In this document: piece after piece, positions 32,025 through 64,000 of the stretch | How positions within the stretch are numbered: the first letter of the stretch is position 1 | How the letters are laid out: each line of letters begins with the position of its first letter | Assembly (NCBI RefSeq): GCF_900167525.1 | Contig: NZ_FUZQ01000001.1 | Coordinates: 248,001-312,000, forward strand | DNA length: 64,000 bases | Source of the DNA: Krasilnikoviella flava | Lineage (GTDB): Bacteria; Actinomycetota; Actinomycetes; Actinomycetales; Cellulomonadaceae | Reading direction: 5' to 3' | Made by a program: the position numbers and the translations under genes | The notes under the pieces: model-generated | Seen by the model: the letters and a program-made list of their open reading frames with translations, nothing else | Database searches by the model: none | What the model was told of the DNA's origin: nothing

Positions 32025-33083
32025 GTGACCGCGTTCGTCGAGTCCCCGCTCCAGCTGCTGTGCGCCGTCGAGGCCCACGCCGCCGGGCACGCCGGCACCA
32101 GCACGCGCGTGCTGGCCCGCGCGGACGTCCCGGCTCTCACCGCCGGGATCGACGCCGTGCGCGCCCTCGGCCTGCCCTCGGGGCTGGACGTGCAGCCCGC
32201 GCCGGCGCCCCGCCGCCTGCCCGACGACGTCGTGGTGGTGGGCGACCCGTTCTCGGGCGCCTTCCAGGCCGCGCTGCTGCGCACCCCGCGCCCGCCGCAG
32301 CACCTCGTCGTCGTCGACGACGGCCTGGCCACCCTCGACCTGGCCCGCCGCGTGCTCACGGGCACGCCGCTCGTGCGCCTGACGGCGCCCCCGGACCCGC
32401 TGCGCTACGGACTGGGCGCCCTGGCCGGGCGCCGGCTGCACCGGCTGGTCGCCGGGGGGCGGCTGACGCTGTGCACCACGATCCCGCTGGACGACGACAC
32501 GGTCGCCGGGCTGCGCGGGCTCGGCGTCGACGTGCGCCCGCACGACTTCGCGTGGCTGCGCTCGCGCCCGCAGCGCAACGCGCCGCAGGAGTCGACGGTC
32601 GTCGTCGGCTCCGCGCTGGTGGCCGACGGCCTGGTGCACGCCGACCGGTACGCCGCCTGGGTGCGCGGGATCGCCAGCGACGGCCCCGTCCGGTACGTCC
32701 CGCACCGCCGCCACGACCCGCTCGTGTCCGCCCTGCTGGAACGCCTGCCCGGCGTCGTCGTGGACGAGCCCGGCGCCCCCGTGGAGATCCGCCTCCGCGG
32801 CCTGCGGCCCGGTCAGCGGACGGTCATGCTGCCGTCGACCTCGGCGGTCACGCTGTCGCGGCTGCTGGCGCCGCGGGGCGTCGTCGTCGCGCCGCACGCC
32901 GTGCCCGACGCCTGGTGGACCGACCGTGCGACGCCGGAGCTGCGCCGCCACCTGGGGCGCACGCACGCGCTCGCCACCCGCGCCGCCGCCGAGAGCGCCG
33001 GCGCCGCCCGCACCGCGCACGTCCCCGGGCGCAGCAGCACCCCGCCGCGCGGCCTGCCCGCCGCCGTGGTGTCGCCCGCATGA
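32025..33083 (+). CDS. Polysialyltransferase-like glycosyltransferase (GT52-type)
   Basis: 352 aa, GTG 32025. It begins FVESPLQLLCAVEA, the SPLQ-type N-terminal signature of bacterial sialyltransferase/polysialyltransferase-like proteins, followed by VVGDPFSG and VVVDDGLATLDL. The second half has PSTSAVTLSRLL where the family places a conserved Ser/Thr-rich donor-binding segment. Length fits. A nonulosonic acid activation gene lies 2.4 kb downstream on the other strand, so CMP-nonulosonate as donor is plausible. The TGA overlaps the next ATG by 4 nt, so the two products probably act together. Confidence 0.7.
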   Translation: MTAFVESPLQLLCAVEAHAAGHAGTSTRVLARADVPALTAGIDAVRALGLPSGLDVQPAPAPRRLPDDVVVVGDPFSGAFQAALLRTPRPPQHLVVVDDGLATLDLARRVLTGTPLVRLTAPPDPLRYGLGALAGRRLHRLVAGGRLTLCTTIPLDDDTVAGLRGLGVDVRPHDFAWLRSRPQRNAPQESTVVVGSALVADGLVHADRYAAWVRGIASDGPVRYVPHRRHDPLVSALLERLPGVVVDEPGAPVEIRLRGLRPGQRTVMLPSTSAVTLSRLLAPRGVVVAPHAVPDAWWTDRATPELRRHLGRTHALATRAAAESAGAARTAHVPGRSSTPPRGLPAAVVSPA

Positions 33084-34294
33084 CGGGCCGCACCTCCCCG
33101 CGCCCGCCGCGGGTGCTCGCCGTCGCCGACGCGGACTCGTACCTCAAGTGGGCGGTGTGGACGCTGGCCGGCCTGCGCGCGGACGGCGCGCCCGTGGACG
33201 TCTCCGCCGTGCTCGTCCGGTCCCCCATCGCGCCCACCCCGGCCCAGGTGGACGCCGCCGTCCGCGGCTCGGGCGTCCCCGGGCCGCCGACGCTGTCCCC
33301 GCGCGACCTGCGCCGGCTCGTCCGGCGCACGCGTCCCGACGTGGTGCTCGTGGCCGCCACCGGTCCCGTCGCGGAGCTCGTGGCCCGCGAGGTCGTGCGG
33401 GCGACCCGCCCCGGACGACGCCCGGCGCTCCTGTCCGGGCTCCCCGGGATGGCGCTGCCCGCGACCCCGCAGGGCGCGGGCTGGCGGCGCTGGTGCGACG
33501 CGTTCCTCGTGCACGCCCGGGTCGAGGCCGGCCCGTACGTCGAGGCGTTCGCCCGGCAGGGGGCGCGGCCCGACGTCGTGCTGACCCGGTTGCCGTTCCT
33601 CGAGCCCTCCGCCGCCCGGGCGCCCGGGTCCCCCGACGCCGCGGTGCGCCGCGTGGTGCTCGCCGCCCAGGCCAAGGTGCCGGGGTCGCGCGACGAGCGG
33701 GTGGACCTGCTGGACGGCCTCGCCCGCCTCGCGGCCGAGGGGCTCGACGTCGTCGTCAAGCTGCGGGCCCGGGCCGGCGAGCGCCAGACGCACAACGAGG
33801 CCCACCCGTTGGACGCGCTCTGGGCCGCGGAGCACGCGCGCCTCGGACGACCCGGCGACGCCGTCTCCTTCGTCACGGGCCCGATGGCCGACCAGCTCAC
33901 CCCCGGGACGGCGCTGCTCACGGTCAGCTCGACCGCGGGCCTGGAGTCCCTCGCCCTCGGGCTGCCGACGGTGTTCCTCGCCGACTTCGGCGTCGGCCCC
34001 GCGCAGCTCAACGAGCCGTTCGCGCGGTCGGGCTGCCTGCTGCGCCTCGACGAGGTGGCGGCCGCCCTGCGGGCCGGTGGCCCGGCCCCCGACCCGGCCT
34101 GGCTCGAGGAGCACTACCTCCACTCCGCGCCGTCCGGGCTGCCCGCGGCCGTGCACGACCTCGCTCGCCGGTCGCGGGACGGCGCGCTGCCCGCGCTGTC
34201 CGTCCGGCCGTGGTCGCGGCCGCGGCACGCCTATACGGCCGCGCGCTCCGCGTTGCCGGTCGCCGTCGGCCGGCGCCTGACGCTCTCCCGCTGA
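33080..34294 (+). CDS. Putative GT-B-like glycosyltransferase (DUF6716-like)
   Basis: 404 aa, ATG 33080 in a 4-nt ATGA overlap. RVLAVADADSYLKWAVWTL at the N-terminus and VTGPMADQLTPGTALLTVSSTAGLESLALGLPTVFLADFG at the C-terminal half look like a GT-B protein with a donor-site Ser-Ser-Thr block; I recall this architecture as DUF6716, but cannot confirm that here. It resembles polysialyl/capsule transferases in its late STAGLES block. No membrane segment. Likely works with the polysialyltransferase-like partner, either as a second transferase adding an alternating sugar or as a subunit. Confidence 0.6.
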   Translation: MTGRTSPRPPRVLAVADADSYLKWAVWTLAGLRADGAPVDVSAVLVRSPIAPTPAQVDAAVRGSGVPGPPTLSPRDLRRLVRRTRPDVVLVAATGPVAELVAREVVRATRPGRRPALLSGLPGMALPATPQGAGWRRWCDAFLVHARVEAGPYVEAFARQGARPDVVLTRLPFLEPSAARAPGSPDAAVRRVVLAAQAKVPGSRDERVDLLDGLARLAAEGLDVVVKLRARAGERQTHNEAHPLDALWAAEHARLGRPGDAVSFVTGPMADQLTPGTALLTVSSTAGLESLALGLPTVFLADFGVGPAQLNEPFARSGCLLRLDEVAAALRAGGPAPDPAWLEEHYLHSAPSGLPAAVHDLARRSRDGALPALSVRPWSRPRHAYTAARSALPVAVGRRLTLSR

Positions 34295-35489: not shown

Positions 35490-37646
35490 TCAGGCGTCGA
35501 CGCGGCGCAGCCGCGACATCGGCGACAGCTCGCCGGGCATGACGCGCTTCTCGCCGTCGCCGAGCGCGTCCTGCAGGATGCGGATGTCGCGCACCAGGTT
35601 GGACAGGCCCTTCGGCTCCAGCGACGCCGCGTGGTCCGAGCCCCACATGGCCCGGTCCAGCGTGATGTGCCGCTCGACGGCCACGGCGCCCAGCGCGACG
35701 GCGGCGAGGGAGATCTGCAGCCCCGTCTCGTGGCCGGAGTATCCGACCGGCACGCCGTAGCGCTCCTGGAGGGTCGTGATGGTCCGCAGGTTCGCCTCCT
35801 CCGCCGGCAGCGGGTAGGTGGAGGTGGCGTGCAGCATGACGAGCCCGTCGGTGCCGAGGATCTCCACCGCGGCGTCGATCTGCTCGAGCGTCGACATGCC
35901 GGTCGACAGGATCAGCGGCTTGCCCGTGTCGGCCAGGGCACGCAGCAGGTCGTGGTCCGTGACGGAGGCCGACGCGATCTTGTGCGTCGGGACGCCGAAC
36001 TCCTCGAGGAAGGCCACCGAGGGCACGTCCCACGGGGAGGCGAACCACTGGATGCCGTTCGCCTTCGCGTACTGGTCGATCTCCGTGTACTGGTCGTGCT
36101 CGAACTCGACCCGGTACTTGTACTCGAGATAGGTCATCTCGCCCCACGGCGTCTGGCGGATCTTGTCCCGCTGGTCCTTCGGGGTGCTGATCTCCGGCGT
36201 GCGCTTCTGGAACTTCACGGCCTGGCAGCCGGCGGCCACCGCGACGTCGATCAGCTGCTTGGCGATCTCGACGTCGCCGTTGTGGTTGATGCCGATCTCG
36301 CCGATCACGTACACCGGCTGGCCGGTGCCGACCTCGTGGTCGCCCACGCGGACGACGGGCGCCTCGGGGCGGGGGGTCGCGGAGGTCGTGCTGGCGGTGC
36401 TGGTCACGGGGGTGTCCTTCCGTTCGTGGAGCTGCGGGGCAGGACGCGCGGCGGCGTCCGGGCGGGCTGCGAGGATCCGCTCGCAGACCTCGCGGACGGC
36501 GCCGTGGCCGCCCGCGCGGGCGAGGACGACGCGCGCGGCGGCGGCGACCTCGGGGTGGGCGTCGGCGACGGCCACGGGCCAGCCGACGAGGTTCAGGGCG
36601 GGCAGGTCGTTCACGTCGTTGCCGACGTACGCGACCCGGCCCGGGTCGAGGCGGTTCACGGCGCACCAGTCGCGCAGCGCGGCGGCCTTGTCGTCCACGC
36701 CGTGCAGCACGTCGACACCGAGCTTGCGGGCCCGGGCCGCCACCACCGGGTTGGTCTCGGTGGACAGGATCAGCAGCGGCACGCCCGTGCGGCGCAGGCG
36801 GGCCACGCCCAGCCCGTCGCCCCGGTGCACGCGCACGCTCTCCGTGCCGTCCTGGGTCACGAAGGCGGCGTCGTCCGTGTGCACGCCGTCGAAGTCCGTG
36901 ACCAGGGCGTCGACGTCGATCGGCTCGTCGGACGGCGGCGTGCCGGGCTGCCCGAGGAGGGTGCGGGCCAGCCACAGGTCGCGGGGCTCGTCGATCTCCA
37001 TCGACCACTCCGGGGCCACGGGCTGCAGCCCCACCGAGCCGAAGAAGCGGCTGCCCGCCTCCCGCAGCCCGGCCGTGCGCATCGCGTAGAACGCGCCCGT
37101 CTCGCGGAAGTGCGGCGCCCGGTCCTGGCGCCGGGGACGGTGGTCGGTGCCGTGACCCACCGGCGTGGGCACGTCGTCGTCGAGCCGCCACTGGAAGTCG
37201 TGCGTGGGCGCCACGGCCACGACGACGTCGTGCTCGCCGGAGCCGACCCGGCGCACGGCGACGTCCAGGTCGGCAGGGTCGACGAACGGCGACGTGGCCT
37301 GCAGCAGCACGGTCACGGCCGGGTCGCCGGCCTCGGCGCGCAGGGCGTCGAGCGCGTGCAGGACGGCGGACTCGGAGCTGGCGGTGGCGCCGGCGATGTC
37401 CGCCGGGCGGCGGAGCACCTGAGCGCCGTGCGCCGTGGCCTCGCGGGCGATCTCGTCGTGGTCGGTCGAGACCACGACCGCGGTCACCGAGGGCGCCGCC
37501 AGCGCCGAGCGCACGGCCCGGGCGACGAGCGTCGTGCCGCCCACCCGCTGCAGGTTCTTCAGCGGGATGCCGGCCGAACCGCCGCGGGCGGGGATCACGA
37601 CGAGCGCACCGCGGTCGGGGCCTGACCCCGGGTGGATGTCGTTCAT
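35490..37646 (-). CDS. CMP-nonulosonate synthetase / HAD phosphatase / NeuB-like synthase fusion
   Basis: 718 aa, ATG 37646. Residues 1-230: NeuA-like cytidylyltransferase (VIPARGGSAGIPLKNL, VVVSTDHDEIA, LLQATSPF, WSMEIDEPRDL). Residues about 245-395: KdsC-type HAD phosphatase (TDFDGVHTDD, GNDVNDLPAL). Residues about 425-718: NeuB domain (YVIGEIGINHNGD, AVKFQKR, YAKANGIQWFASPWD, KIASA, LSTGMSTL, GYSGHETG). NeuB condenses PEP with an N-acyl-hexosamine, the phosphatase would free a 9-phosphate, and NeuA makes the CMP-sugar. The usual C-terminal SAF domain is missing. GTG at 36407, in frame, has its own strong ribosome-binding site, so a separate 305-residue NeuB may also be made. No NeuC-type epimerase is in the window, so the exact sugar (sialic, legionaminic or other) is open. 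Confidence 0.9.
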   Translation of the reverse strand: MNDIHPGSGPDRGALVVIPARGGSAGIPLKNLQRVGGTTLVARAVRSALAAPSVTAVVVSTDHDEIAREATAHGAQVLRRPADIAGATASSESAVLHALDALRAEAGDPAVTVLLQATSPFVDPADLDVAVRRVGSGEHDVVVAVAPTHDFQWRLDDDVPTPVGHGTDHRPRRQDRAPHFRETGAFYAMRTAGLREAGSRFFGSVGLQPVAPEWSMEIDEPRDLWLARTLLGQPGTPPSDEPIDVDALVTDFDGVHTDDAAFVTQDGTESVRVHRGDGLGVARLRRTGVPLLILSTETNPVVAARARKLGVDVLHGVDDKAAALRDWCAVNRLDPGRVAYVGNDVNDLPALNLVGWPVAVADAHPEVAAAARVVLARAGGHGAVREVCERILAARPDAAARPAPQLHERKDTPVTSTASTTSATPRPEAPVVRVGDHEVGTGQPVYVIGEIGINHNGDVEIAKQLIDVAVAAGCQAVKFQKRTPEISTPKDQRDKIRQTPWGEMTYLEYKYRVEFEHDQYTEIDQYAKANGIQWFASPWDVPSVAFLEEFGVPTHKIASASVTDHDLLRALADTGKPLILSTGMSTLEQIDAAVEILGTDGLVMLHATSTYPLPAEEANLRTITTLQERYGVPVGYSGHETGLQISLAAVALGAVAVERHITLDRAMWGSDHAASLEPKGLSNLVRDIRILQDALGDGEKRVMPGELSPMSRLRRVDA
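36405..36421 (-). promoter_or_regulatory. Internal ribosome-binding site and GTG start for stand-alone NeuB
   Basis: GGAAGGA (36415-36421) with a 7-nt spacer precedes an in-frame GTG (36405-36407) in the linker before the NeuB domain. No stop codon separates it from the upstream domains. Confidence 0.55.
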
Positions 37647-37826
37647 GGCACCGACACTAAGAGCGCGACAAGGCGCGACCGGCGCTTTACGGAAAACTGT
37701 CGCCGAACATCAGGATGCTGTCAGGTGAACACTTTCCGATCCCCTCCGAGAATGGTCGGTCGTGCTTTCCCGGTGCCCTTTCATGGGAGAAGTCACCGGG
37801 AGAATTCCCCTGTCCGAGGAGGTCCG
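37647..37826. promoter_or_regulatory. Divergent promoter region, comparatively AT-rich
   Basis: This 180-bp gap separates the nonulosonate gene from manA and contains A/T-rich stretches (TTTACGGAAAACTGTC near 37685, AACACTTTCC near 37727) that stand out locally. CTGTC occurs twice 21-22 nt apart (about 37697 and 37718). AGGAGG 5 nt before the manA ATG is a perfect ribosome-binding site. No promoter can be fixed. Confidence 0.35.
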
Positions 37827-39152
37827 ATGGACGCCCTGACCGCCCGCTCGCACCCGCGCACCGTCCCCGCCCCCGCTCCCCTGAGCGCCGCTCGCCTCCG
37901 CGCCGTCCCGACGGCGACGGGACGACGCGGAGGCATGCCCGTGCTGCACCTCGACAACCCGGTCCGCGCGTACGACTGGGGGTCGCCCACCCGCATCCCC
38001 GACCTGCTCGGGCGCGAGCCCGACGGGAGCCCCGCGGCCGAGCTGTGGCTCGGCGCGCACCCCGGCGCGCCGTCCCGCCTGCGCACGCCGGGCGGCGGCG
38101 CGGGCCGCAGCCTCGAGGACCTGGTGGGCGCCGAGCCGCACGACGCCCTCGGCCGGCGCGTCGCGGACCGCTTCGGCCCCCGGCTGCCGTTCCTGCTCAA
38201 GGTGCTCGCGGCGGACCGCGCGCTCTCCCTGCAGGTGCACCCCCGCCCGCACCTCGCGCGGGCCGGCTACCACCGCGAGACCCGCGCGGGCCTGCCCGCG
38301 GGACACGCGCAGCGGTCGTTCCACGACGACCAGCACAAGCCCGAGATGATCGTGGCGCTCAGCCCGTTCGAGGCCCTCGCCGGGTTCCGCAGCCCGCGGA
38401 CGGTGCTCCGCCTGCTGGACGGGCTCGACGGCGCCCTCCTCGACGCGGTGCGGGGCGCGCTCGCCGACCGGCCGTCCACCGCGGGGGTGCGCGCCGCCAC
38501 CGAGGCCCTCGTCGCGGCGCGCACCTCGCCGTCGACCGCGGCCGACGTCGCGGCCGCGGTCGCCGCCGTCGCCCGCCGCCACGAGGCCGGGAACGCGGAG
38601 ACCGCGCGCGCCGACGCCACCGTCCTCACCCTCGCCGAGCAGCACCCCGGCGACCCGGGCGCCCTCGTGTCCCTGCTGCTGCACCGCGTCACCCTGGAGC
38701 CGGGCGAGGCGATGTACGTGCCCGCCGGCGAGGTGCACGCCTACCTCAGCGGCTTCGGGGTCGAGGTGATGGCCGCCTCCGACAACGTGCTGCGCGCCGG
38801 GCTGACCACCAAGCACGTCGACGCCCCCGCGCTGCTGGAGTGCGCGTCGTTCGCCCCGCGCCCGCCCGCACGACCGGCCACGCTGGTGTCCGGCGGCGAG
38901 AGCGTCGTGGTGACGTACCGCGCCCCGGTCGAGGAGTTCGCGCTGACGTTCGCCGACGTCGTGCCCGGCGAGCCGGTGGCCCTCGCCCCCGACGGCCCCC
39001 GCGTCGTCCTGGCGCTCGACGGCGAGGCCCGGCTGCTCACCAACGCCGGCAGGCTCCTGCTGCGTCGCGGCGAGTCCTGCTTCGTGCCCGACGCCGCCGG
39101 GCCGCTGACCGTCGACGGCTCCGCGCACGTCGTCTGCGCCTGGGTCCCCTGA
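37827..39152 (+). CDS. manA: Mannose-6-phosphate isomerase, type I (paralogue 1)
   Basis: 441 aa. ATG 37827 chosen for its perfect AGGAGG; a second ATG at 37935 begins MPVLHLDNPVRAYDWGS, where most homologues start, so residues 1-36 are an extra N-terminus. Blocks: AAELWLGAHPGAPS, LPFLLKVLAADRALSLQVHPRP (zinc ligands), FHDDQHKPEMIVAL (E/H ligands), and YVPAGEVHAYLSGFGVEVMAASDNVLRAGLT. It interconverts fructose-6-P and mannose-6-P. With manB it would give mannose-1-P; no GDP-mannose pyrophosphorylase is present. The protein at 57760 is a clear paralogue. Confidence 0.93.
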   Translation: MDALTARSHPRTVPAPAPLSAARLRAVPTATGRRGGMPVLHLDNPVRAYDWGSPTRIPDLLGREPDGSPAAELWLGAHPGAPSRLRTPGGGAGRSLEDLVGAEPHDALGRRVADRFGPRLPFLLKVLAADRALSLQVHPRPHLARAGYHRETRAGLPAGHAQRSFHDDQHKPEMIVALSPFEALAGFRSPRTVLRLLDGLDGALLDAVRGALADRPSTAGVRAATEALVAARTSPSTAADVAAAVAAVARRHEAGNAETARADATVLTLAEQHPGDPGALVSLLLHRVTLEPGEAMYVPAGEVHAYLSGFGVEVMAASDNVLRAGLTTKHVDAPALLECASFAPRPPARPATLVSGGESVVVTYRAPVEEFALTFADVVPGEPVALAPDGPRVVLALDGEARLLTNAGRLLLRRGESCFVPDAAGPLTVDGSAHVVCAWVP

Positions 39153-41516: not shown

Positions 41517-44547
<3,031 letters not shown>

Positions 44548-44557
44548 CCGGACCATC

Positions 44558-46414: not shown

Positions 46415-46424
46415 GCCGGCGAGC

Positions 46425-51252: not shown

Positions 51253-51298
51253 GGTCGAGCCCGTCGAGACTCCGTCCTGGGGTTCGGCGAGCTCAACC
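51253..51298. repeat. Palindromic element copy 4 (diverged), spanning a sulfotransferase stop
   Basis: The left arm (GGTCGAGCCCGTCGAGAC) is conserved; the right arm has four changes. On the minus strand GGTCGA has become GGTTGA, and this TGA is the stop of the sulfotransferase at 51293. Confidence 0.7.
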
Positions 51299-52393
51299 GG
51301 CGTCGACGGTGAACGCGTCGAGGTCGAGCCCGTGCGCGGCGAGGGCGCGCCGGGCGCGGCCGACGTCGGCATCGTCGAAGAACTGCTTCCACTGCCCGAT
51401 CGAGCCGTCGCGCGTGAAGTAGCCGTCCAGCTTGACCACCATGGAGCGACCGGTGAGGTCCTCCATGGCGCGGATGGTGGAGATGTCGGACAGGGCGAGG
51501 GCGCGGTCGACGGCGTCGTCCACGAGCGGCAGGCCGAGGAAGCGCACCACCTCGCGGAAGCGCGCGCCCGGGTCCTTCTTGAGGTCCTCGTACGACGCGA
51601 CGTGCACGTCGGGGTCGTCGCGGTAGCTGTCCAGGGTGAGGTAGTGCAGCGCGTACGTGTCGAGCATCGGCTCGATGACGTCGCGCGGGTGCGCGGCCTC
51701 CTCCCGGCGCTGCGGCCGCTGCTTGATCGTGTAGTGGTACAGCGACACGACGTAGTCGAGCGGGTTGCGGTACAGCATGATCTTGCGGCCGGGCGAGAAG
51801 GCGAACGGGTCGACGTCGTGCCGGAAGTGCTGCATGGTCACGTCCGAGACACCGTGCCCCGCCAGCAGCGCGCAGGGCGTGCGGTACGGCTCCGCCTCGC
51901 GGAACACCTGCCAGCGGTTGTTGCCGTAGAACTCCTGCTGCAGCTGGGGGTAGGAGATCGGGCGCTCCACACCGGGGGCGGCGAGGGCGCGCGCATAGTT
52001 GGTGAGGAAGAACCGCATCCAGTGCGTGCCGGACTTCTGGATCGTCGCGACGGTCACGAGGTCCGCGGCGTGCAGGCGGCCGAACGCCTCGGCGAAGGCG
52101 TCCCCGCGCTCGGCGGCGAGCGTCCCGAGACGCCAGCGGGCGACGTCGCCCAGGTAGCGCAGCGCCTCGCCCGGGTCCGGAGGCAGGGCCGCGACCACCG
52201 CGGCGTCCTCGCCGGCCCGCAGCCCGACCAGGGCGCCGGCGAGCCGGGCGTCCTTCGACGTCGTGCCGGCGTGCGCGGCCAGCGTCTCCCAGTCGCGGGT
52301 CAGCAGGGCGCTGCCCAGGTGCGGGGGCAGGTGCTCCTCCGCGGCGGCGCGGACCTTCCTCGCGGTGCGCGAGGCCGTGAGCCAGCGGGCCAT
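51293..52393 (-). CDS. Sulfotransferase domain protein
   Basis: 366 aa, ATG 52393 with GGAGGAAG 6 nt upstream. An N-terminal helical region (1-105) precedes a Sulfotransfer_1 domain: TVATIQKSGTHWMRFFL (PAPS loop, about 112), LLAGHGVSD and KIMLYRNPLDYVVSLYHY (3'-phosphate site, about 205), then YEDLKKDP and a late R/W-containing block (GRSMVVKLDGYFTRDGSIGQWKQ region, about 330). It lies 2 bp after the sialyltransferase-GT8 gene, in the same operon. Predicted to sulfate the glycan made by that enzyme. Confidence 0.88.
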   Translation of the reverse strand: MARWLTASRTARKVRAAAEEHLPPHLGSALLTRDWETLAAHAGTTSKDARLAGALVGLRAGEDAAVVAALPPDPGEALRYLGDVARWRLGTLAAERGDAFAEAFGRLHAADLVTVATIQKSGTHWMRFFLTNYARALAAPGVERPISYPQLQQEFYGNNRWQVFREAEPYRTPCALLAGHGVSDVTMQHFRHDVDPFAFSPGRKIMLYRNPLDYVVSLYHYTIKQRPQRREEAAHPRDVIEPMLDTYALHYLTLDSYRDDPDVHVASYEDLKKDPGARFREVVRFLGLPLVDDAVDRALALSDISTIRAMEDLTGRSMVVKLDGYFTRDGSIGQWKQFFDDADVGRARRALAAHGLDLDAFTVDAG

Positions 52394-52395
52394 CG

Positions 52396-54318
52396 TCACT
52401 TCCTCCGGTTCCGGTAGTACTGCACGAGGATCCCGCTGCCGACGGCGGCCGTGGCCAGCGGTCCCTTCGCCCGCTCCAGGGTGCGCAGCGCGTCGCGGCG
52501 GCGGCCCAGCCGCATGCTCGCGATCGCGAGCTGGCGCTGCTCGGCCGTGGTGAGGCTCCGCTTGCGCGCCGTCTCGCCGAGGAGCCGGGCCGCGGGCTCG
52601 GCGCGGCCGGCGGCCAGGTGCGCCTTGACCGCCCGGAGCACCTCGGCGGGGGGCTCGGCCGTCGTGGTCGACAGGTCGGTCTGGCGGCGCAGGTCGCGGA
52701 TCAGCTCGTTCTTCTCGGCGCCCGTGAGGTGGTCGAGCCACTCCAGGTCGAGGGTGTCGTAGCGGTCGTCGCCGCCCGCCGGCTCCCACGGCTTCTTGCC
52801 CACGTAGTGCAGCACCCGCACGTCCTCGTCGTGGAAGAGCGCGGGGTGGTGGGAGAAGATCCGCTTCGTCGTGTTGTTCTCCGGGGGCAGGGCACGCCAC
52901 GTGTCGAAGAAGATGTTGAGGAAGCCCTGGTCCCCGCCGTCGTACGACGGGGTGTGCGGCAGGCGGGACATCATCGCCTCGAACGTGGCGTACGACGGCG
53001 TGAACGCGAACACCCCGGAGTTGAAGACGCCGGGGTTCGGCGCGTCCAGGCCGGCGTCGGGGACGGCGGCGAAGTCGTCCCCGGCGAACAGGTCGTCGAT
53101 GTTCTGCCGCACGACGGCGTCACTGTCCACATAGACCGCACGGTCGAGGAAGTCGAGCCGGAAGACGTGCAGCTTGGTGTAGGTGGCGGCGAACCTCTCC
53201 TGCACCTTCTGCGGTCGACCGCCGGCACCGTTCGCCCGCAGCACCGGGTTGACGATCGGCGGGACGTCGAGCGTGAGGATGCCGCTCGCCGCGAGCGCCG
53301 CCTTGTCGGCGTCCGGGGTGCACAGGGCGACCAGCGGCACGTCCGTGACCGCGCGCAGGGAGTTCGCCAAGGCCCGCGCCCCGTGGTGGTACGAGCCGGA
53401 GACGACGGTGACGAACGCGCAGCGACGGCCGTCGACCTCCTTCCACAGGGGCCCGTCGACCTTCGGCACCGTGAGGGCCTGGACGCCACCGGTGGCCGGC
53501 AGCTCGATCTCGACGGTGTCCTTGGTGGCGGCGACGCTCGACCCCTCCCCCGGCCCCAGGTGCGGGCGGCCGGCGGGCAGGTCCTCGGCCGGCGGCACGT
53601 ACAGGTGCAGCATCTCCGACTGGCTCACCGAGCGGACGGTGGCGTCGGGGTACGCAGCGAGGCACGAGCGCAGGAACGCGAGGTCGGTGTCGAGCCCGTG
53701 CGCTGCCTCGTACCCGGGCGTCGCGTCCTTCGCCTGCAGGCCCAGCTCGGCCACCTGCGGCATCGTGTAGCCGTATCGCACGTCCTTGGACTCGTACAGG
53801 TCGATGCCCGCGAGGTAGATCTCGCGGAAGCCGACGCCCAGCCCGAACGCCAGGGCCTGCATGCCCGTCGTGGGCAGGCCCGGCCGGCTCATGAAGTGCC
53901 GCGCGAGACGCGGGTTGCGCGCCGGCACGCTCCACGAGTCCAGCTCCTCGACGTCGACCAGCGGCTCCAGCCCGTACCGGTCGCCGTCGCGGTGCGCGGC
54001 GTGGCGCATGGGCGACAGCACCCGGCGCACGTCGTAGCGGCCCGACCGGATCTCGTCCTGGAGCCGCTTCTCGAGCTGCTCGTGCGGCACGGCGCTGAAC
54101 CACGCGTCGACGCGGTCCCCGACGTGGTAGTTGCTCTCCAGGAAGAACCAGTTCATCCGGAAGACCACGACGTCGGCCGGGATGCGGTGGTAGGGCGGCA
54201 TCGCAGACGACGGCCCGTTGCCGACGATCAGCAGGGGCCGGTCCGTGAGGTCGGCGAACGACGTGATCTCCGGCTCGCCCGGCTCGCGGCCGAGCGGGAC
54301 GCTCCGCATGGTGGGCAT
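52396..54318 (-). CDS. GT42 sialyltransferase fused to glycogenin-like GT8 domain
   Basis: 640 aa, ATG 54318 with AGGAG upstream. Residues 25-260 match Cst-type (GT42) sialyltransferases: LLIVGNGPS with N34, VVFRMNWFF with N56, REIYLAGIDLY with Y175, and H207 in AAHGLDTD. Spacing N34-N56 (22) and Y175-H207 (32) equals that of Cst-II N9-N31 and Y156-H188. Residues about 300-530 form a GT8 domain: FVTVVSGSYHHGARALANSL, AVYVDSDAVV (DxD near 395), FNSGVFAF and DQGFLNIFFD. Thus one protein may add a nonulosonic acid and a hexose. The remaining 100 residues are TPR-like helical. Upstream leader carries 14-bp tandem repeats. Confidence 0.85.
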   Translation of the reverse strand: MPTMRSVPLGREPGEPEITSFADLTDRPLLIVGNGPSSAMPPYHRIPADVVVFRMNWFFLESNYHVGDRVDAWFSAVPHEQLEKRLQDEIRSGRYDVRRVLSPMRHAAHRDGDRYGLEPLVDVEELDSWSVPARNPRLARHFMSRPGLPTTGMQALAFGLGVGFREIYLAGIDLYESKDVRYGYTMPQVAELGLQAKDATPGYEAAHGLDTDLAFLRSCLAAYPDATVRSVSQSEMLHLYVPPAEDLPAGRPHLGPGEGSSVAATKDTVEIELPATGGVQALTVPKVDGPLWKEVDGRRCAFVTVVSGSYHHGARALANSLRAVTDVPLVALCTPDADKAALAASGILTLDVPPIVNPVLRANGAGGRPQKVQERFAATYTKLHVFRLDFLDRAVYVDSDAVVRQNIDDLFAGDDFAAVPDAGLDAPNPGVFNSGVFAFTPSYATFEAMMSRLPHTPSYDGGDQGFLNIFFDTWRALPPENNTTKRIFSHHPALFHDEDVRVLHYVGKKPWEPAGGDDRYDTLDLEWLDHLTGAEKNELIRDLRRQTDLSTTTAEPPAEVLRAVKAHLAAGRAEPAARLLGETARKRSLTTAEQRQLAIASMRLGRRRDALRTLERAKGPLATAAVGSGILVQYYRNRRK

Positions 54319-54421: not shown

Positions 54422-55864
54422 TCAGCGCGGGCGCACGAGGCGGCGCGCCCGGTTCGCGGCCCGCGAGACGAGCGAGCCGCGCGCGAGGGAGGCGCGGAAG
54501 TCGCGCAGCGAGGCGCGCGACTCCTCGACCTCGGCCCCCAGCGTGCGGATCTGGGCGTCCTTCGCGCCGAGCTCGGCGTCCTTGGTGCGCAGCCGCTCCT
54601 CGGCGCGCGCCTTCTCCAGCGACGCGTCGTAGGTGCGGGCGGCGAGGCGCCGCTCCTTCGGCGTCAGCGGGGTGAAGGACGGCGCGACGGCGACGCCCGT
54701 CAGGCGCTCGTAGATGGTCGCGAGGTTCGCCAGGGTCGTGTCGTACAGGCCGCGCCGGGTCGCGGCGAGCTCGGCGCGCAGCGCGACGCGGCGCTCGGTG
54801 ACGTCGTGGATCGTGGCGTAGAGGTCGTCGGTGAAGGTGTCCGCGCGCGGGTCGAGCGCCCACTCGGGGTGCCCGAGGTCGGTCGCGAAGTACCGCGTCT
54901 TGTGGTGCACGTACAGCGACAGCGGGATCGCGCCCATGCCGAACGGCACCATCTGCGCGTGCCCCCGCGTGCCGAGGATGACGGGCAGGTCGGCGAGATC
55001 CTGCACGCCCCGGAACAGCACGTCGCGGCTGCCCCACAGCACGCGCTCGGAGTCCACGAGCCCGCGCTCGCGCAGCACGTCGCCGAACAGCGTGTCGGCG
55101 CGGGCGTGCGGCACGCTCACCAGCTCCCAGCCCTCGCCGCGCAGCCGGGCGAGGACGTCGGCCTGGTCGGCGTAGATGCGGTCCCGGTCGAAGCCGGCCG
55201 CGATCTGCCGCTTGCCGACGATGGACTCCACGGCGAGCACTCGGCCGTCGCCGGCGGGCCCGGCGCGCCCGTCGAGGCGCTCGCGGTACAGGTCGGGGAA
55301 GAGGTACGACGAGATCGTCGTGGGGCACGGCTGGTACTCGACCCGCTCGGGGTCGTGGTCCACGTACTCGCGGACCGTGCGCACCGAGCCGTGGTTGCGC
55401 AGCCCGAAGAAGACGGACTTGTCGAGCGTCAGGTTGAGGTGCTCGCGGAACGGCTCCGCGAAGTCCTCCTGGTCGATGAACCGGTTGTTGCCGACGGCGA
55501 AGACGACGATCGGCACCTCGAGCCGGCGCAGCTGCTCCAGGGAGATGTTCCACTGCCACCCGGAGCGCGCGTTCGCGTTGGTGTCGCGCAGGAAGAGCCC
55601 GCCACCGCCCACGACCACGGCGTCGTAGTGCTCGTTGATGTGGTCCACGAGGCGCGGCCCGACCGGGTCACGCAGGGACCGGCTGCCCGCGACCTCGAAG
55701 GCCGCGCCCCCCGCGAAACCCTCGAAGGTCTCGCGGACGGCCTCGAACAGGAGCGTGTCGCCGTAGTTCCCGTACGTCTTGATGTCGAAGTGGAACAGGC
55801 GCAGGCGGCGCCCCGGTCGGGGTTCTCCGGAGGTCGGTCGCACGGCGGCGGCGTGAGTCGGCAC
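54422..55864 (-). CDS. Polysaccharide pyruvyl transferase family protein
   Basis: 480 aa from GTG 55864; a TTG at 55897 is the alternative and neither has a clear ribosome-binding site. Fold markers: KTYGNYGDTLLFEAVR (about 28-43), VVGGGGLF, VVFAVGNNRF, FFGLRNHGSVRT, YQPCPTT, and GTRGHAQMVPFGMGAIPLS near 330. A C-terminal coiled coil (about 420-470, KDAELGAKDAQIRTLGAE) follows. It is a paralogue of the product of 60271-61740. Predicted to add a 4,6- or 3,4-pyruvate ketal to a hexose of the polymer. Confidence 0.87.
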   Translation of the reverse strand: MPTHAAAVRPTSGEPRPGRRLRLFHFDIKTYGNYGDTLLFEAVRETFEGFAGGAAFEVAGSRSLRDPVGPRLVDHINEHYDAVVVGGGGLFLRDTNANARSGWQWNISLEQLRRLEVPIVVFAVGNNRFIDQEDFAEPFREHLNLTLDKSVFFGLRNHGSVRTVREYVDHDPERVEYQPCPTTISSYLFPDLYRERLDGRAGPAGDGRVLAVESIVGKRQIAAGFDRDRIYADQADVLARLRGEGWELVSVPHARADTLFGDVLRERGLVDSERVLWGSRDVLFRGVQDLADLPVILGTRGHAQMVPFGMGAIPLSLYVHHKTRYFATDLGHPEWALDPRADTFTDDLYATIHDVTERRVALRAELAATRRGLYDTTLANLATIYERLTGVAVAPSFTPLTPKERRLAARTYDASLEKARAEERLRTKDAELGAKDAQIRTLGAEVEESRASLRDFRASLARGSLVSRAANRARRLVRPR

Positions 55865-55995
55865 GGCGCGAGCGTAAGCACCGGATGGCCGCCGCAAGGC
55901 CGGAATCCGGCCCGATCACCGGCTGCTCATCGACTGTTCATCTGCGGGCCAGCCGGTGCTCCGTGCGTGTTCTCCCACGGGCGCCGGGCCCTGGC

Positions 55996-56214: not shown

Positions 56215-57656
56215 GCGTCCTCCGTCCGCACGAGCGACAGGACGTCGTCGCGCACCTTGATCATGATGTCCTCGTCCGCGGCCTCGACGTTGAGCCGCAG
56301 CAGCGGCTCCGTGTTCGACGCGCGCAGGTTGAACCACCACTGCGGGTGGCCGTCCCAGTGCGCCACGGTGAGGCCGTCGAGCTCGTCGACGTCGGCCTGC
56401 GGGTAGGCCGCCGCGTACGCCTCGCGCACCCGGGCCGTGGCCGCGGCGGCGTCCGCCACGGTCGAGTTGATCTCCCCCGACGCCACGTACGGGGAGTACA
56501 TCTCCGCCAGCACCGACAGCGGGTGCGGCTGCCCGCCGAGCGCGGCCAGCACGTGCAGCGCCGCGAGCATGCCGGTGTCCGCGAAGAAGAAGTCGCGGAA
56601 GTAGTAGTGCGCGCTGTGCTCGCCGCCGAACACCGCGTCGTGCTCGGCCATCTGCGCCTTGATGAACGAGTGGCCCACCCGGGTGCGCACCGTCGTCGCG
56701 CCCGCGGCCTGCAGCAGGTCGGGCACGGCGCGGGAGGTGATGAGGTTGTGGATCACCGTGGGCGTGCGCCCCGCCTCGAGCTCCTTCGCCACCTCGCGCA
56801 GCCCCACGAGGGCCGTCACCGCGGACGGCGAGACGGGGTCGCCGTGCTGGTCGACGACGAAGCAGCGGTCGGCGTCGCCGTCGAACGCGAGGCCCAGGTC
56901 GGCGTCGTGCTCGACGACGGCGGCCTGCAGGTCGCGCAGGTTGGCGGGCTCGAGCGGGTTGGCCTCGTGGTTCGGGAAGCTGCCGTCGAGCTCGAAGTAC
57001 AGCGGCACGACGTCGAGCGGCAGCGCGGTCAGCCCCGCGGCCGTGCCGAGCACCGCCGGCGCGGTGTACCCGGCCATGCCGTTGCCGGCGTCCACCACGA
57101 CCTTGAGCGGGCGGATGCCCGACAGGTCGACGAGACCGCGCAGGAACGCGGCGTAGTCGGCGAGCGTGTCCCGCTCGCTGGTCGAGCCTGTCGAGTCCCG
57201 GTCCGTGGTCTCGACGGGCTCGACCGACGACGCGTCGTCGAGGATCCGCTGCGCCAGCTCGCGGACGTCGGCCAGGCCGGTGTCCTGCCCTACGGGCCTG
57301 GCACCCGCGCGGCACAGCTTGATCCCGTTGTAGACGGCGGGGTTGTGGGAGGCGGTGAACATCGCGCCGGGCGCGTCCAGCGCGCCGGACGCGTGGTACA
57401 GCCCGTCCGTGGAGCACAGCCCGATGCGCACGACGTCGACCCCCGCGGCCGTGACGCCCGCGGTGAACGCGTCGACCAGCCCGGGGCCGGACTCGCGCAT
57501 GTCGTGCCCGACGACGACCCGGGACGCGCCCTCGGGCACGGCCACCACGCGGGCGAACGCCGCGCCGATCGCACGGGCCACCTCCGGCGAGAGCTGGTCG
57601 GGCACGGTGCCGCGCACGTCGTACGCCTTGATGATGGTGGCCAGGTCGATCGTCAC
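56211..57656 (-). CDS. manB: Phosphomannomutase/phosphoglucomutase
   Basis: 481 aa, GTG 57656. IKAYDVRGTVPDQL at the N-terminus, FTASHNPAVYNGIKLC (catalytic Ser loop), LAFDGDADRCFVVD (metal loop), GGEHSAHYYFRDFFFADTG (sugar-binding loop) and a late RASNTEPLLRLN (phosphate-binding) are complete. It interconverts hexose-6-P and hexose-1-P. The segment SSVEPVETTDRDSTGSTSE between the first two domains is encoded by palindrome copy 5 (57180-57225), inserted in frame in a loop, so function is probably kept. Confidence 0.95.
   Translation of the reverse strand: MTIDLATIIKAYDVRGTVPDQLSPEVARAIGAAFARVVAVPEGASRVVVGHDMRESGPGLVDAFTAGVTAAGVDVVRIGLCSTDGLYHASGALDAPGAMFTASHNPAVYNGIKLCRAGARPVGQDTGLADVRELAQRILDDASSVEPVETTDRDSTGSTSERDTLADYAAFLRGLVDLSGIRPLKVVVDAGNGMAGYTAPAVLGTAAGLTALPLDVVPLYFELDGSFPNHEANPLEPANLRDLQAAVVEHDADLGLAFDGDADRCFVVDQHGDPVSPSAVTALVGLREVAKELEAGRTPTVIHNLITSRAVPDLLQAAGATTVRTRVGHSFIKAQMAEHDAVFGGEHSAHYYFRDFFFADTGMLAALHVLAALGGQPHPLSVLAEMYSPYVASGEINSTVADAAAATARVREAYAAAYPQADVDELDGLTVAHWDGHPQWWFNLRASNTEPLLRLNVEAADEDIMIKVRDDVLSLVRTEDA
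57180..57225. repeat. Palindromic element copy 5, in frame inside manB
   Basis: Arms 57180-57198 and 57207-57225 match the family consensus with two differences between arms. It adds about 15-17 residues to ManB with no frame change. Confidence 0.85.
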
Positions 57657-57759
57657 GTCCCACAGCGTACGTGCCCCGCCCGCCGCGAGCGGGTGGTTCT
57701 GCGGGCGGACTTCCGGCCCGGGGCCCCCTCTCCGCGGCGCGTGTGGAAGTGTGGTGCCC

Positions 57760-58968
57760 GTGCCCGAGCTCTACCCGCTGGAGAACACCGTCCAGCACGC
57801 CGACTGGGGCTCGCGCACGCGGATCCCCCAGCTGCTGGGCACGGTCCCGGACGGCTCCCCGGCCGCCGAGCTGTGGCTCGGCGCCCATCCCAGCGCTCCG
57901 TCCCGGGTCGCCGGCGACCGCTCCCTGCTGGAGCTCGTGCGCTCGGCGCCGGACGCGATGCTGGGCCGCCGGGTCGCCGACGAGTACGGCCCCCGGCTGC
58001 CCTACCTGCTCAAGGTCCTCGCGGCCGAGCGGGCGCTGTCGCTCCAGGTGCACCCCAAGCCGCACGCGGCCCGCGCCGGGTTCAACCGGGAGAACCGTCA
58101 GGGCCTGCGCCCCGGCGACCCGGGCCGCTCCTTCCACGACGACCAGCACAAGCCGGAGATGGTGGTCGCGCTCACCGAGTTCGAAGGACTGGCGGGCTTC
58201 CGGGCGCCGCGCGCCGTCCTCGACCTGCTCGACGGGCTCGACGGCGACCTGGTGGACGCCGTCCGCGGGACGCTGGCCGCCGACCGCTCCCCGGCCGGCG
58301 TCAAGGCGGCGTTCTCCCGGCTCGTCGCCGCGCGTCGCGACCCGGGCGCCCCGGCCGAGGTCGCCACCACGGTCGCCTCCGTCGCCACCCGCCTGGCGGC
58401 GGGCTCGCCGTCGTCGCGCGCCGACGCGACCGTGCTGCAGCTCGCCGAGCAGCACCCGGGCGACCCGGCCGCGCTCGCGTCGCTGCTGCTCAACCGCGTG
58501 ACGCTCGACCCCGGCCAGGGCCTCTTCCTCCCGGCGGGCGAGGTGCACGCGTACCTGTCCGGGCTCGGGATCGAGATCATGGCGTCCTCGGACAACGTGC
58601 TGCGGGCCGGCCTCACCACGAAGCTGGTCGACGAGGCCGCGCTCGTCGAGTGCGCGTCGTTCGTGCCGCGCCCGCCGCAGCCGCCCCGCACGCGGTCCGC
58701 GGGCGGGCGGGGACAGGTGACCACCTATCGCGCCCCCGTGCGGGAGTTCGCGCTGACCGTCGCGGACGTCGACCCGGGCGAGGACGTCGACCTGCCCGCC
58801 GAGGGCCCCCGCATCGTGCTGTGCCTCACGGGCGACCTGAAGCTCACCGCCCAGGACTGCCCCGCCCCCGCGACGCTGCACCGCGGCGGCTCCGTGTTCG
58901 TGCCGCACGACGCCGGGGAGCTGCGGCTGTCCGGCTCCGGCCACGCCGTCTGCGCCTGGGTGCCCTGA
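57760..58968 (+). CDS. manA: Mannose-6-phosphate isomerase, type I (paralogue 2)
   Basis: 402 aa from GTG 57760 (GGAAG 10 nt upstream; GTG 57751 or 57754 also possible). Motifs: YPLENTVQHADWGSRTRIP, AELWLGAHPSAPS, LLKVLAAERALSLQVHPKPH, FHDDQHKPEMVVAL, FLPAGEVHAYLSGLGIEIMASSDNVLRAGLTT. It aligns along its whole length with the product of 37827-39152. It is divergent from manB with a 103-bp gap, which is the more usual chromosomal arrangement, so this is probably the housekeeping copy and the other the locus-specific one (inference). Confidence 0.92.
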   Translation: MPELYPLENTVQHADWGSRTRIPQLLGTVPDGSPAAELWLGAHPSAPSRVAGDRSLLELVRSAPDAMLGRRVADEYGPRLPYLLKVLAAERALSLQVHPKPHAARAGFNRENRQGLRPGDPGRSFHDDQHKPEMVVALTEFEGLAGFRAPRAVLDLLDGLDGDLVDAVRGTLAADRSPAGVKAAFSRLVAARRDPGAPAEVATTVASVATRLAAGSPSSRADATVLQLAEQHPGDPAALASLLLNRVTLDPGQGLFLPAGEVHAYLSGLGIEIMASSDNVLRAGLTTKLVDEAALVECASFVPRPPQPPRTRSAGGRGQVTTYRAPVREFALTVADVDPGEDVDLPAEGPRIVLCLTGDLKLTAQDCPAPATLHRGGSVFVPHDAGELRLSGSGHAVCAWVP

Positions 58969-61768: not shown

Positions 61769-64000
61769 TCAGGCGGCCGCGAGCGCGTCGCGCCCCGGCT
61801 GCCACGCGTCCATCAGCCCGGTGGTGCCCGCCCCGGTGGCGTCGTCCTGCAGGGCGCCGGCGAGCATCCGGGCGTCGGCCGCCGACGGCGCCGCGATGAG
61901 CCGCGCGAGGGCGTGCGTCGCGGAGTCCGGGCGCATCGCCAGCATCGGGACGCGTTCGCCGAAGCGGGCGAAGACGTCGTCGACGAAGTCGGCCACGCCC
62001 CGCTGGATCTCGGCGTTGCGGCGGTCGGTGGCGACGGTCGGGGCGAGCACGGGCCGCCCGTCCGGGCCGAACCCGTGGCACTCCGGCAGCCCCACCGGGG
62101 TCAGCAGGTACTCGAGCGCCGTGCCGTGCCGGAAGAAGGTGCGGTCCTGCGACCATGGCTCGAACCGGGCGCCGGTGATGACCGCGTACTCCAGCGCGTG
62201 CTCCATCCCGGTGAAGTACAGCCCGTCGACGCGGCGCCCGAGGCTCGTCATGATCGCCCGCTGCGAGGACCCCGAGTAGCCGAGGTCGACGACGACCGGC
62301 CGCTCGGCACCGGCCAGGCGCTCCGCGTAGTGGCCACGGGCGGCGGCGCTGCGAGCGGCGCACGCCGCGGCGACCTCGTCCGCGTGCTCGACCAGCACCG
62401 CGGTCAGCGCCGCGGCCCGGTCCCGGCCCAGCGGGGCGTCCAGGTCGGCGACGCCGGCACGCGCGAGCGCCGGCCCGAGCGTCCCGACCACGCCCGCGCC
62501 GAACCGCGTCGTGAGCAGCGTGCGCGGGGTGTTCGCCGGGTTGAGCCCGTGCACGAACTGGGTGGCGGCCACGTGCGCCGGGTCACCGGAGAACACCTGG
62601 AAGGCGGCACGACGCGACGCGAGCAGGTAGCGGGCCCTGGGCAGCTCGGGGTCGGCCTCGCGCAGCCGCTCGTACACGCGGTGCGGCACGTAGCCGTCGC
62701 GCGCCAGGAACGACACGTCGTCGTACCCGAGGTCGCGCGCCTGCCGTGCGACCCACAGCGTCCAGCCCAGCAGGGCGGGCCCCGCGATCCCGTAGCCGAG
62801 GGAGTACGGCGTGCCGAGCGAGACGCCGCCCTTCGGGAAGGCCACGAACGGGTTGTCGAAGAACCGGTGCGCCACCACCCCCTTGACGAGGGACAGGCCC
62901 TTCTCCTCCCGGAAGCCCTTCCACAGCCCGCCCAGCGCGTGCGTGCGCCGGGCCGCGTCGGCCGCCGCGGGCACGTGCAGGGTCGCGATGCCGCGCTCGG
63001 CGGCACGCTCGACGTCGGAGACCGGGTTGTCACCCACGTGCAGCAGGTCGCCGGCCTCGATCCCGAGGTCACGCAGGACCACGTCGTAGAGCGCGCCGGA
63101 CGCCTTGGTCGCGTCCGCGTCGGCCGACGCGAAGACGAACGCCGGCTCCACCGGCAGGTGCGGGCCCACCAGGTCGAGCAGCTCGTCCGCCGGGTAGAAC
63201 GTGTCCGATACCAGACCGACCCGCTTGCCGAGCCGGTGCGCGAACAGCATGAGGGCGGCGCCGAGGGCCCGCGGGGCGAGGTGCCGCTGCTCGAGCTCGA
63301 CCTCCGCGGCGAGCAGCGCCTGGCCGTCGACGCCGCCGAGAAGGCGGGCCGTCTGGTCGGCCACCGCCCCGATGGGGTACTCGTCGCGCTCGGCCCCGGT
63401 GGCGCGGTCGGCGGCACGCAGGGTCCCGACGGCCGCGTTCCGGGCGTTGCTGTAGCGCGCCATCGGCGTCAGGCCGGGCGCCAGCTCACGGTCCAGCACG
63501 CTCACGAGGTCCGCGGCGCGGGACACCGGCCGGGTCACGAGCGTGTCGAACACGTCGAACGAGACGGTGGCAGCCCCGGACGAGCGCAGCGTGCGGAAGG
63601 CCTCGGGCAGCGCCGGGGTGACCGCTCCCCCGACGCCGCGCACGGCGGCGAGCAGCGGGTCCTGCGTCGTGGGCGGCACCGAGTCCACCTGGCGTTCCAG
63701 CACCGTCCACGGGTCCACGCCGGAGTCGACCGCGGGCAGCCGCTCCAGCGACGGCACCCGGTCGCGCAGCGCCAGGTAGGTGGCGAGCTGCCCCGTGCGC
63801 TCGGCGCCCAGGCTCGCGGCCATCCGCAGCCCGAAGTCGACGTCGAGGAGGAACGACGGCACCCCCAGCAGGTGCGGGGCGGTGAGCAGCAGCGTGGAGT
63901 TCACGGCGACGACGGCGGCCGGACGGGAGGTGGCGATCAGCACCTCGAGCGGCAGGTCGCGGTCGGTCATGCGGCTCAGCCCGCCGGCGAGCTCCGCCGG
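61769..64000 (-). CDS. HAD hydrolase with transferase-like N-terminus, running off the window
   Basis: At least 733 residues. ATG 63970 is possible, but the frame stays open to the right edge (10 more codons) and the segment LEVLIATSRPAAVVAVNSTLLL near residue 10 looks like the C-terminal end of a polysialyltransferase-type domain, so the true start is probably beyond the window. After about residue 120 comes an HAD-type domain: SFDVFDTLVTRP (nucleophile D), then GLVSDTFYP, and LHVGDNPVSDVERA (motif III/IV). The remaining 390 residues resemble other large HAD-containing polysaccharide proteins, ending with a second Rossmann-like part (VDLGYSGSSQRAIM). Function likely phosphatase or transferase on a polymer precursor. 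Confidence 0.65.
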   Translation of the reverse strand, partial: PAELAGGLSRMTDRDLPLEVLIATSRPAAVVAVNSTLLLTAPHLLGVPSFLLDVDFGLRMAASLGAERTGQLATYLALRDRVPSLERLPAVDSGVDPWTVLERQVDSVPPTTQDPLLAAVRGVGGAVTPALPEAFRTLRSSGAATVSFDVFDTLVTRPVSRAADLVSVLDRELAPGLTPMARYSNARNAAVGTLRAADRATGAERDEYPIGAVADQTARLLGGVDGQALLAAEVELEQRHLAPRALGAALMLFAHRLGKRVGLVSDTFYPADELLDLVGPHLPVEPAFVFASADADATKASGALYDVVLRDLGIEAGDLLHVGDNPVSDVERAAERGIATLHVPAAADAARRTHALGGLWKGFREEKGLSLVKGVVAHRFFDNPFVAFPKGGVSLGTPYSLGYGIAGPALLGWTLWVARQARDLGYDDVSFLARDGYVPHRVYERLREADPELPRARYLLASRRAAFQVFSGDPAHVAATQFVHGLNPANTPRTLLTTRFGAGVVGTLGPALARAGVADLDAPLGRDRAAALTAVLVEHADEVAAACAARSAAARGHYAERLAGAERPVVVDLGYSGSSQRAIMTSLGRRVDGLYFTGMEHALEYAVITGARFEPWSQDRTFFRHGTALEYLLTPVGLPECHGFGPDGRPVLAPTVATDRRNAEIQRGVADFVDDVFARFGERVPMLAMRPDSATHALARLIAAPSAADARMLAGALQDDATGAGTTGLMDAWQPGRDALAAA

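Follow-up and report, generated by a model that had tools for sequence, protein, structure and literature searches.

The window analysed here is a stretch of 64,000 nucleotides from Krasilnikoviella flava (contig NZ_FUZQ01000001.1, positions 248,001 to 312,000), and its minus strand encodes at 52399..54318 a candidate wall-polymer enzyme in which an N-terminal GT42 (sialyltransferase-type) domain is fused to a GT8 (glycogenin-type) domain. The gene comprises 640 codons, begins with ATG and is followed by a stop codon at 52396-52398; an earlier sequence-only reading had placed the open reading frame (ORF) at exactly 52396-54318, leaving its strand unstated. The codon-position G+C content of the ORF (0.71/0.48/0.98) is that expected for a high-GC gene. 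The GT42 domain (53620..54237, minus strand, residues ~28-233) contains N34, N56, Y175, Y182 and H207, the equivalents of key residues in the Campylobacter enzyme Cst-II, while the GT8 domain (52783..53424, minus strand, residues ~299-512) contains the motifs D398-S-D400, D460-GGDQG and H504-x-x-G507-x-K509. A C-terminal tail (52399..52716, minus strand, residues ~535-640) is helical in the AlphaFold2 model and weakly TPR-like, with TPR and BTAD matches that all fall below the Pfam cut-offs; it is shortened in the aligned alphaproteobacterial relatives.

Pfam profiles, a sequence search of the PDB and Foldseek agree on the union of GT42 with GT8 that the sequence-only reading had claimed, and they include the profile and fold comparisons that it had suggested. 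PF06002 matches with an E-value of 9.4e-10 (38.9 bits against a cut-off of 25) and PF01501 with 1.1e-13 (51.8 bits against 24.3). Residues 28-216 find Cst-II in the PDB (E 1.7e-11) and residues 301-512 find glycogenin-1 (E 1.3e-25). An AlphaFold2 model built from an 18-row alignment (mean pLDDT 74.7, pTM 0.49) gives the same picture in Foldseek, with best matches to Cst-II (1ro8; E 2.3e-11, TMt 0.65) and glycogenin (E 1.1e-15, TMt 0.72). A distance between the two active sites was dropped from consideration because a pTM of 0.49 is too low to judge inter-domain geometry.

Both active sites appear intact. When phmmer aligns the protein with Cst-II (1ro7), N34, N56, Y175 and H207 stand opposite N9, N31, Y156 and H188, with the spacings of 22 and 32 common to both proteins, just as had been proposed from the sequence, and Y182 aligns with Y162. 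The GT8 DxD is likewise preserved (D398-S-D400), in keeping with the earlier claim. We take as given the roles of N9, N31, Y156 and Y162 in Cst-II, and those of the GT8 DxD (metal binding) and of the C-terminal His and Lys of GT8 enzymes. GT8 enzymes retain the configuration of the transferred sugar and thus produce α-hexosides. For the other half, His188 is described as the likely catalytic base of Cst-II, and bacterial sialyltransferases as inverting enzymes (PMC4202792). Twenty selected motif residues from the two domains are identical in 18/18 aligned fusions, and the sole motif difference in the copies on Sinorhizobium meliloti and Ensifer adhaerens plasmids is K509, replaced there by Asn. 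The same genome harbours, just outside the window, a second GT42-GT8 fusion (G000:C10:313122-314594; L024:1730-3676, minus strand), and this paralogue and its counterpart in I. cucumis (L027:3907-5937) have lost N34, N56, D173, Y175 and H207, among others, while keeping the GT8 motifs. This contrast between a paralogue that lost the GT42 motifs and fusions proper that keep them all suggests selection on both active sites of the fusion itself.

To survey the distribution of the fusion, an alignment of only the GT42 half was run against 84,980 species genomes; because the scan relied on two family-typical peptide patterns, it is biased towards close relatives and is a poor guide to other GT42 genes. 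Of its 54 pattern matches, 19 were relatives, located in 17 loci, and at 17/17 loci GT8 follows the GT42 half in the same frame; the separate genes for the two halves that the earlier reading had named as evidence against itself were not found at these loci. Actinobacterial hosts comprise Isoptericola, Promicromonospora, Serinicoccus, Luteimicrobium, Cellulosimicrobium and Myceligenerans together with a metagenome-assembled genome (MAG) of the Euzebyales, and the others are Neorhizobium, Methylopila and an alphaproteobacterial MAG. Eleven plasmid records also gave a match, ten of them detailed. Both halves are present in three of them, two from E. adhaerens and one from S. meliloti (covering 86% of the query at 36.9% identity), in each species as a single open frame; six match the GT8 half alone, and a Tritonibacter record has the GT42 half alone, next to a cytidylyltransferase gene. 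The description of the fusion as unusual in a high-GC Gram-positive needs a correction. GT42 is rare in the phylum, where PF06002 is found at E<=0.001 in 3 of 396 genomes (the window's own counted; two matches exceed the cut-off), and 14 control genomes gave 0 PF06002 matches, but the fusion is no oddity of a single actinomycete, occurring as it does in six actinobacterial genera, the Euzebyales MAG and Alphaproteobacteria. At lower ranks the GT42 alignment matched in 14/221 genomes of the family and in 5/18 genomes of Isoptericola, the window's own included.

GT8 is not an obligate partner of GT42, and the fusions form a subset of their own. Of 297 genomes in the order to which Methylopila belongs, 2 have a GT42 match: Methylopila itself and one genome with two stand-alone GT42 genes (G780:C4:170214-170804 and 176171-176767; L071 and L070) in frames of 284 and 385 codons, with no GT8 on the 3.6 kb fetched around them; one of the two adjoins NeuA, HAD and NeuB matches. 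In a tree of the GT42 half, five alphaproteobacterial fusions lie on one side of a branch (support 95/99), the two stand-alone rows sit on very long branches, and the tree does not settle the order of fusion and loss. A phage origin was rejected: at E 1e-5, a search of 50,697 phage records returned no match for the GT42 half. The S. meliloti ml28 pSymB locus (L002/L068, 1055000-1090050) has integrase, recombinase and insertion sequence genes nearby, which would be compatible with the locus moving between genomes as one unit.

The probable donor of the GT42 domain is suggested by a second multidomain gene. A single 718-amino-acid ORF at 35490..37646 (minus strand) joins a first domain of CMP-sialate synthetase type (a cytidylyltransferase) to a KdsC-type HAD phosphatase and a NeuB synthase, the sole NeuB of the genome. 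The best NeuC match in the genome reaches 85 bits against a cut-off of 235.9, and the best PseC match 216 bits against 423.5. The phosphatase domain within the synthase ORF suggests a 9-phosphate intermediate in the nonulosonate pathway, and in the established pathway a phosphatase and mannose-6-phosphate fit the synthesis of ketodeoxynonulosonic acid (Kdn) from mannose-6-phosphate. A mannose-6-phosphate isomerase gene (ORF limits 37632..39152, plus strand) lies divergent from the synthase gene; its profile match begins at residue 105, and the true start is probably later. A second ORF of mannose-6-phosphate isomerase type is found at 57343-58968, beside a phosphomannomutase gene. The donor is probably CMP-Kdn, given a single NeuB that is fused to a KdsC/Kdn-9-phosphate-type phosphatase and a cytidylyltransferase, and NeuC and PseC matches that stay under their cut-offs. 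The sequence-only reading had proposed assays with CMP-N-acetylneuraminic acid (CMP-Neu5Ac) or CMP-legionaminic acid; on the gene content, CMP-Kdn appears more probable than either, legionaminic acid genes not having been searched for as such. Neu5Ac and pseudaminic acid were disfavoured as donors on the same grounds.

Synthase and fusion are often linked. At 12/17 fusion loci the fetched stretch encodes all three CMP-Kdn domains, and in the S. meliloti record the fusion is 1-4 kb from cytidylyltransferase and NeuB genes. Within the family, 53 of 221 genomes have a synthase match at E < 1e-100, a set that contains every one of the 14 fusion-bearing genomes (hypergeometric 4.8e-10, a figure that ignores kinship). 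The arrangement of the synthase varies: Isoptericola halalbus (L029/L038) and Myceligenerans (L030/L048) encode NeuB in an ORF of its own, and a 1472-amino-acid ORF of Cellulosimicrobium arenosum (L032:13528-17946) holds all three domains.

A pyruvyl transferase gene and a sulfotransferase gene flank the fusion. Directly upstream, a polysaccharide pyruvyl transferase is encoded at 54422..55897 on the minus strand (PF04230, 2.1e-10), and matches of this type occur at 12/17 fusion loci. Directly downstream, a sulfotransferase (PF00685, 2.7e-20) occupies 51293..52393 on the minus strand; its ATG at 52393 is two bases past the fusion stop, and an alternative GTG at 52399 would overlap that stop. 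Relatives of this sulfotransferase stand just downstream of the fusion in four loci (L035, L036, L038 and L048), a sulfotransferase or sulfotransferase-like gene is present at 10/17, and the I. luteus genome has 0 PF00685 matches. Farther away, near the CMP-Kdn gene, a putative glycosyltransferase of DUF6716 type (33080..34294, plus strand) shares 60% identity with a DUF6716 protein of P. citrea; a DUF6716 gene with at least 45% identity is found near the fusion at 9/17 loci (L038-L043, L045, L046 and L048), and one is annotated beside the S. meliloti fusion. A polysialyltransferase-HAD protein is encoded at 61769..63970 on the minus strand, cut by the window end; the corresponding ORF of I. 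cucumis has 1186 amino acids (L027:5367-8927) and matches PF07388 at 3.3e-49, and the S. meliloti locus contains a relative.

Other genes of the region show further variations. At 28274-30748 the window encodes a large protein whose C-terminal GT8 domain has, judged by eye, another residue in place of the first Asp of its DxD, and an 899-amino-acid ORF of Isoptericola sp. 4D.3 (L026:4175-6874) joins GT8 and polysaccharide pyruvyl transferase domains. A 404-amino-acid ORF at 46425-47639 has no Pfam match and resembles a P. citrea sulfotransferase-like protein weakly (29%, 1.8e-6); we take the KTGTTxLQ stretch near its start to be a sulfotransferase-like motif. Genes for UDP-galactopyranose mutase, GlfT2-like and GT2 proteins lie at 41517-46531 and 21188-23135, accompanied by genes for an ABC ATPase and for a protein with weak, sub-cut-off similarity to a galactan-export permease. 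Given these mutase, GlfT2-like and export genes, the same island may direct a second wall polymer.

Promicromonospora citrea connects the fusion with a polymer of reported structure. Isoptericola and Promicromonospora belong to one family (Promicromonosporaceae), and at the fusion locus of P. citrea ATCC 15908 (L040) the fusion, NeuA, HAD, NeuB, DUF6716 and pyruvyl transferase genes lie within ~13 kb. We take ATCC 15908 and 665T to be the same type strain, for which a search found no confirmation. The wall polymer of strain 665T is given in a review as →6)-α-D-Glcp-(1→6)-α-D-Glcp3SO3-(1→4)-α-7,9Pyr-Kdn-(2→ (PMC6801904). Pyruvate, sulfate, α-Kdn and α-glucose of a repeat of this type each have a candidate gene in the window, and the predicted products of the fusion, an α-Kdn and an α-hexose, have the anomeric configurations of the reported repeat. 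Two sulfotransferase-like proteins of P. citrea have no Pfam match to a sulfotransferase domain, and one of them, tried in the PDB, found none either; they align with a Serinicoccus protein that matches PF13469 at 2.9e-4, under the cut-off, and a PF00685 match in the P. citrea genome (2.3e-5) has no DNA match to the fusion locus. PF01501 is found at two places in P. citrea, the second of which (L072) is related to the window protein at 28274-30748 (52% over residues 197-529, 36% over 673-811). A second GT8 gene as the source of the second α-glucose in the repeat is only partly supported. On the alphaproteobacterial side, K antigens of Sinorhizobium are described as following a Hex-Kdx pattern (PMC1403797), a rule that some strains break (PMC4881576). 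Such antigens suit the alphaproteobacterial fusions as the Kdn polymer suits the actinobacterial ones. The titles and abstract openings of the open-licence papers listed contained no account of the P. citrea polymer at the level of genes.

We propose, with a probability of about 70%, that the fusion is a bifunctional Kdn/hexose transferase for a wall polymer, a teichulosonic acid. The idea that the protein may add two sugars in turn was already part of the sequence-only reading and still seems the best account of domains recognised by both profile and fold, of a fusion that spans two phyla and of residues invariant in 18/18 sequences. The fusion protein would act in the cytoplasm. There the NeuB domain would condense mannose-6-phosphate and phosphoenolpyruvate to Kdn-9-phosphate, the HAD domain would take off the phosphate, and the cytidylyltransferase domain would convert Kdn to CMP-Kdn. 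Using H207 as base, the GT42 domain would then transfer Kdn with inversion to give an α-Kdn, most likely α-(2→6)-linked to a hexose at the chain end, after which the metal-dependent, retaining GT8 domain would add an α-hexose, most likely α-glucose from UDP-glucose to O-4 of Kdn. Repetition of both steps would extend the chain as in the serogroup W capsule polymerase, and the products of the neighbouring genes would place pyruvate on Kdn and sulfate on the hexose; export and attachment to the wall are likewise envisaged. To repeated alternation, as one part of this proposal, we give a little under even odds. The caution reflects two features, the extra glucose of the P. citrea repeat and the polysialyltransferase-type protein. 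That repeat has two glucoses, and strict two-step alternation needs a further glucosyltransferase; the explanation by a second GT8 protein is weakened by the replaced Asp in the window copy, and the polysialyltransferase-type protein is a second candidate nonulosonate transferase in the same region. These same features speak for the other form of the bifunctional proposal, which we regard as unlikely but worth serious attention, namely that each chain or branch receives a single Kdn and a single hexose from the fusion, as a linkage, cap or side-branch, while a separate enzyme polymerises. The full-length PF07388 match in I. cucumis, the relative in the S. meliloti locus and the glucosyltransferase that the P. 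citrea repeat calls for all lean that way, whereas the hexose/Kdn repeat itself, the Sinorhizobium Hex-Kdx rule and the serogroup W precedent suit alternation.

Several further observations qualify the domain assignment or weigh against the proposal. The best-scoring PF06002 stretch spans residues 30-76 only. R129 of Cst-II, described as binding the sialylated acceptor (PMC4202792), aligns with L148 of the fusion and is thus not kept at the aligned place; the invariant R145 sits three residues before L148, and R129 is not taken as defining the GT42 family. Stand-alone GT42 genes near nonulosonate genes, in the Methylopila order and in Tritonibacter, indicate that GT42 needs no GT8. That only GT8 is active, the GT42 domain being a structural or acceptor-binding remnant, seems to have come true in the paralogue and its I. 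cucumis counterpart, but for the fusion itself it is very improbable, each checked GT42 motif residue being invariant in the fusion and 17 relatives from two phyla. The assignment of Kdn has weak points of its own. The HAD domain scores 94.9 bits against the cut-off of 180 of the Kdn-9-phosphate phosphatase model, and the KdsC model scores slightly higher (107.7 bits) while also remaining under its cut-off (208). Five of the 17 loci have no synthase on the fetched stretch: in two of these genomes the domains lie at ~11-12 kb from it, in a third on a separate contig and in a fourth at a distance of 2.3 Mb from the fusion, and the fifth is Methylopila. The CMP-Kdn domains are also absent within the 12 kb flanks of an E. 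adhaerens plasmid locus (L003), and 39 of the 53 synthase-positive genomes of the family lack the fusion. We nonetheless consider it distinctly unlikely that the GT42 domain uses Neu5Ac, legionaminic acid or pseudaminic acid instead. NCBIfam ranks the NeuB domain as N-acetylneuraminate synthase and then as PseI, and a passage on the actinomycete Kribbella mentions its teichulosonic acids without naming their nonulosonate (PMC6113628), but both NCBIfam scores are under the curated cut-offs (269 against 400 and 222 against 340 bits). The single NeuB and the sub-threshold NeuC and PseC matches point away from these sugars too (with the limit on legionaminic acid genes given above), as do the phosphatase domain with its 9-phosphate intermediate, the adjacent mannose-6-phosphate isomerase and the Kdn reported for P. 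citrea. An assembly or frameshift artefact is scarcely conceivable, being refuted by the in-frame GT8 at every locus and by the plasmid records of S. meliloti and E. adhaerens, where one open frame holds both halves.

Kdn teichulosonic acid is reported to be a main polymer of the Streptomyces wall (PMC11481543, PMC7831098), and SCO4873-SCO4882 of S. coelicolor to be a teichulosonic acid cluster (PMC13011467). Neither a GT42-GT8 fusion nor a Kdn transferase for teichulosonic acid appeared in the titles and abstract openings among the open-licence papers listed. The fusion gene is a concrete candidate for such a Kdn transferase, and one carrier species, P. citrea, already has a reported polymer structure. 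If the proposal is true, a two-domain polymerase of capsule type would have been assembled convergently from other glycosyltransferase families, a Gram-positive wall polymer would be linked to rhizobial capsules, and a one-protein tool for hexose-Kdn polymers might become available.

Among known systems, the polymers of S. coelicolor and P. citrea share Kdn and hexose in an actinomycete wall, and P. citrea has the fusion; the S. coelicolor polymer differs in being galactose-Kdn. Cst-I and Cst-II (CAZy GT42, PF06002) resemble the N-terminal domain in fold, in sequence and in the equivalents of N9, N31, Y156, Y162 and H188; unlike them, the fusion carries GT8, has no R129 at the aligned position and probably uses CMP-Kdn. 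Glycogenin and other GT8 enzymes (PF01501) share the fold of the C-terminal domain, its DxD and the HxxGxKPW motif, whereas the predicted acceptor of the fusion is Kdn or a glycan rather than its own tyrosine, and its GT8 domain is joined to GT42. A functional parallel would be the W/Y capsule polymerases of Neisseria meningitidis (GT4 + GT97). The W polymerase is reported to be one protein that makes Gal-α1,4-Sia-α2,6 with an N-terminal hexosyl half of GT4 type (PMC6048754), and bifunctional enzymes of W type are assigned to GT97 (PMC5811610). Like these enzymes, the fusion would combine a retaining hexosyltransferase with an inverting sialyltransferase, and the linkages predicted for the fusion are those of the W polymer. 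The fusion is not a member of this group: its domains derive from other families and stand in the reversed order, sialyltransferase-type first, and Pfam gives PF06002 then PF01501 with no GT4-type domain (a GT97 model was not run). Tentatively, then, and with somewhat less than an even chance of being right, GT42 + GT8 may represent a second, independently evolved hexose/nonulosonate polymerase with the same α1-4/α2-6 alternation as the GT4 + GT97 enzyme, one that would serve as a teichulosonic Kdn transferase in actinomycetes and that gene transfer would have made common to them and to the rhizobia with Hex-Kdx capsules.

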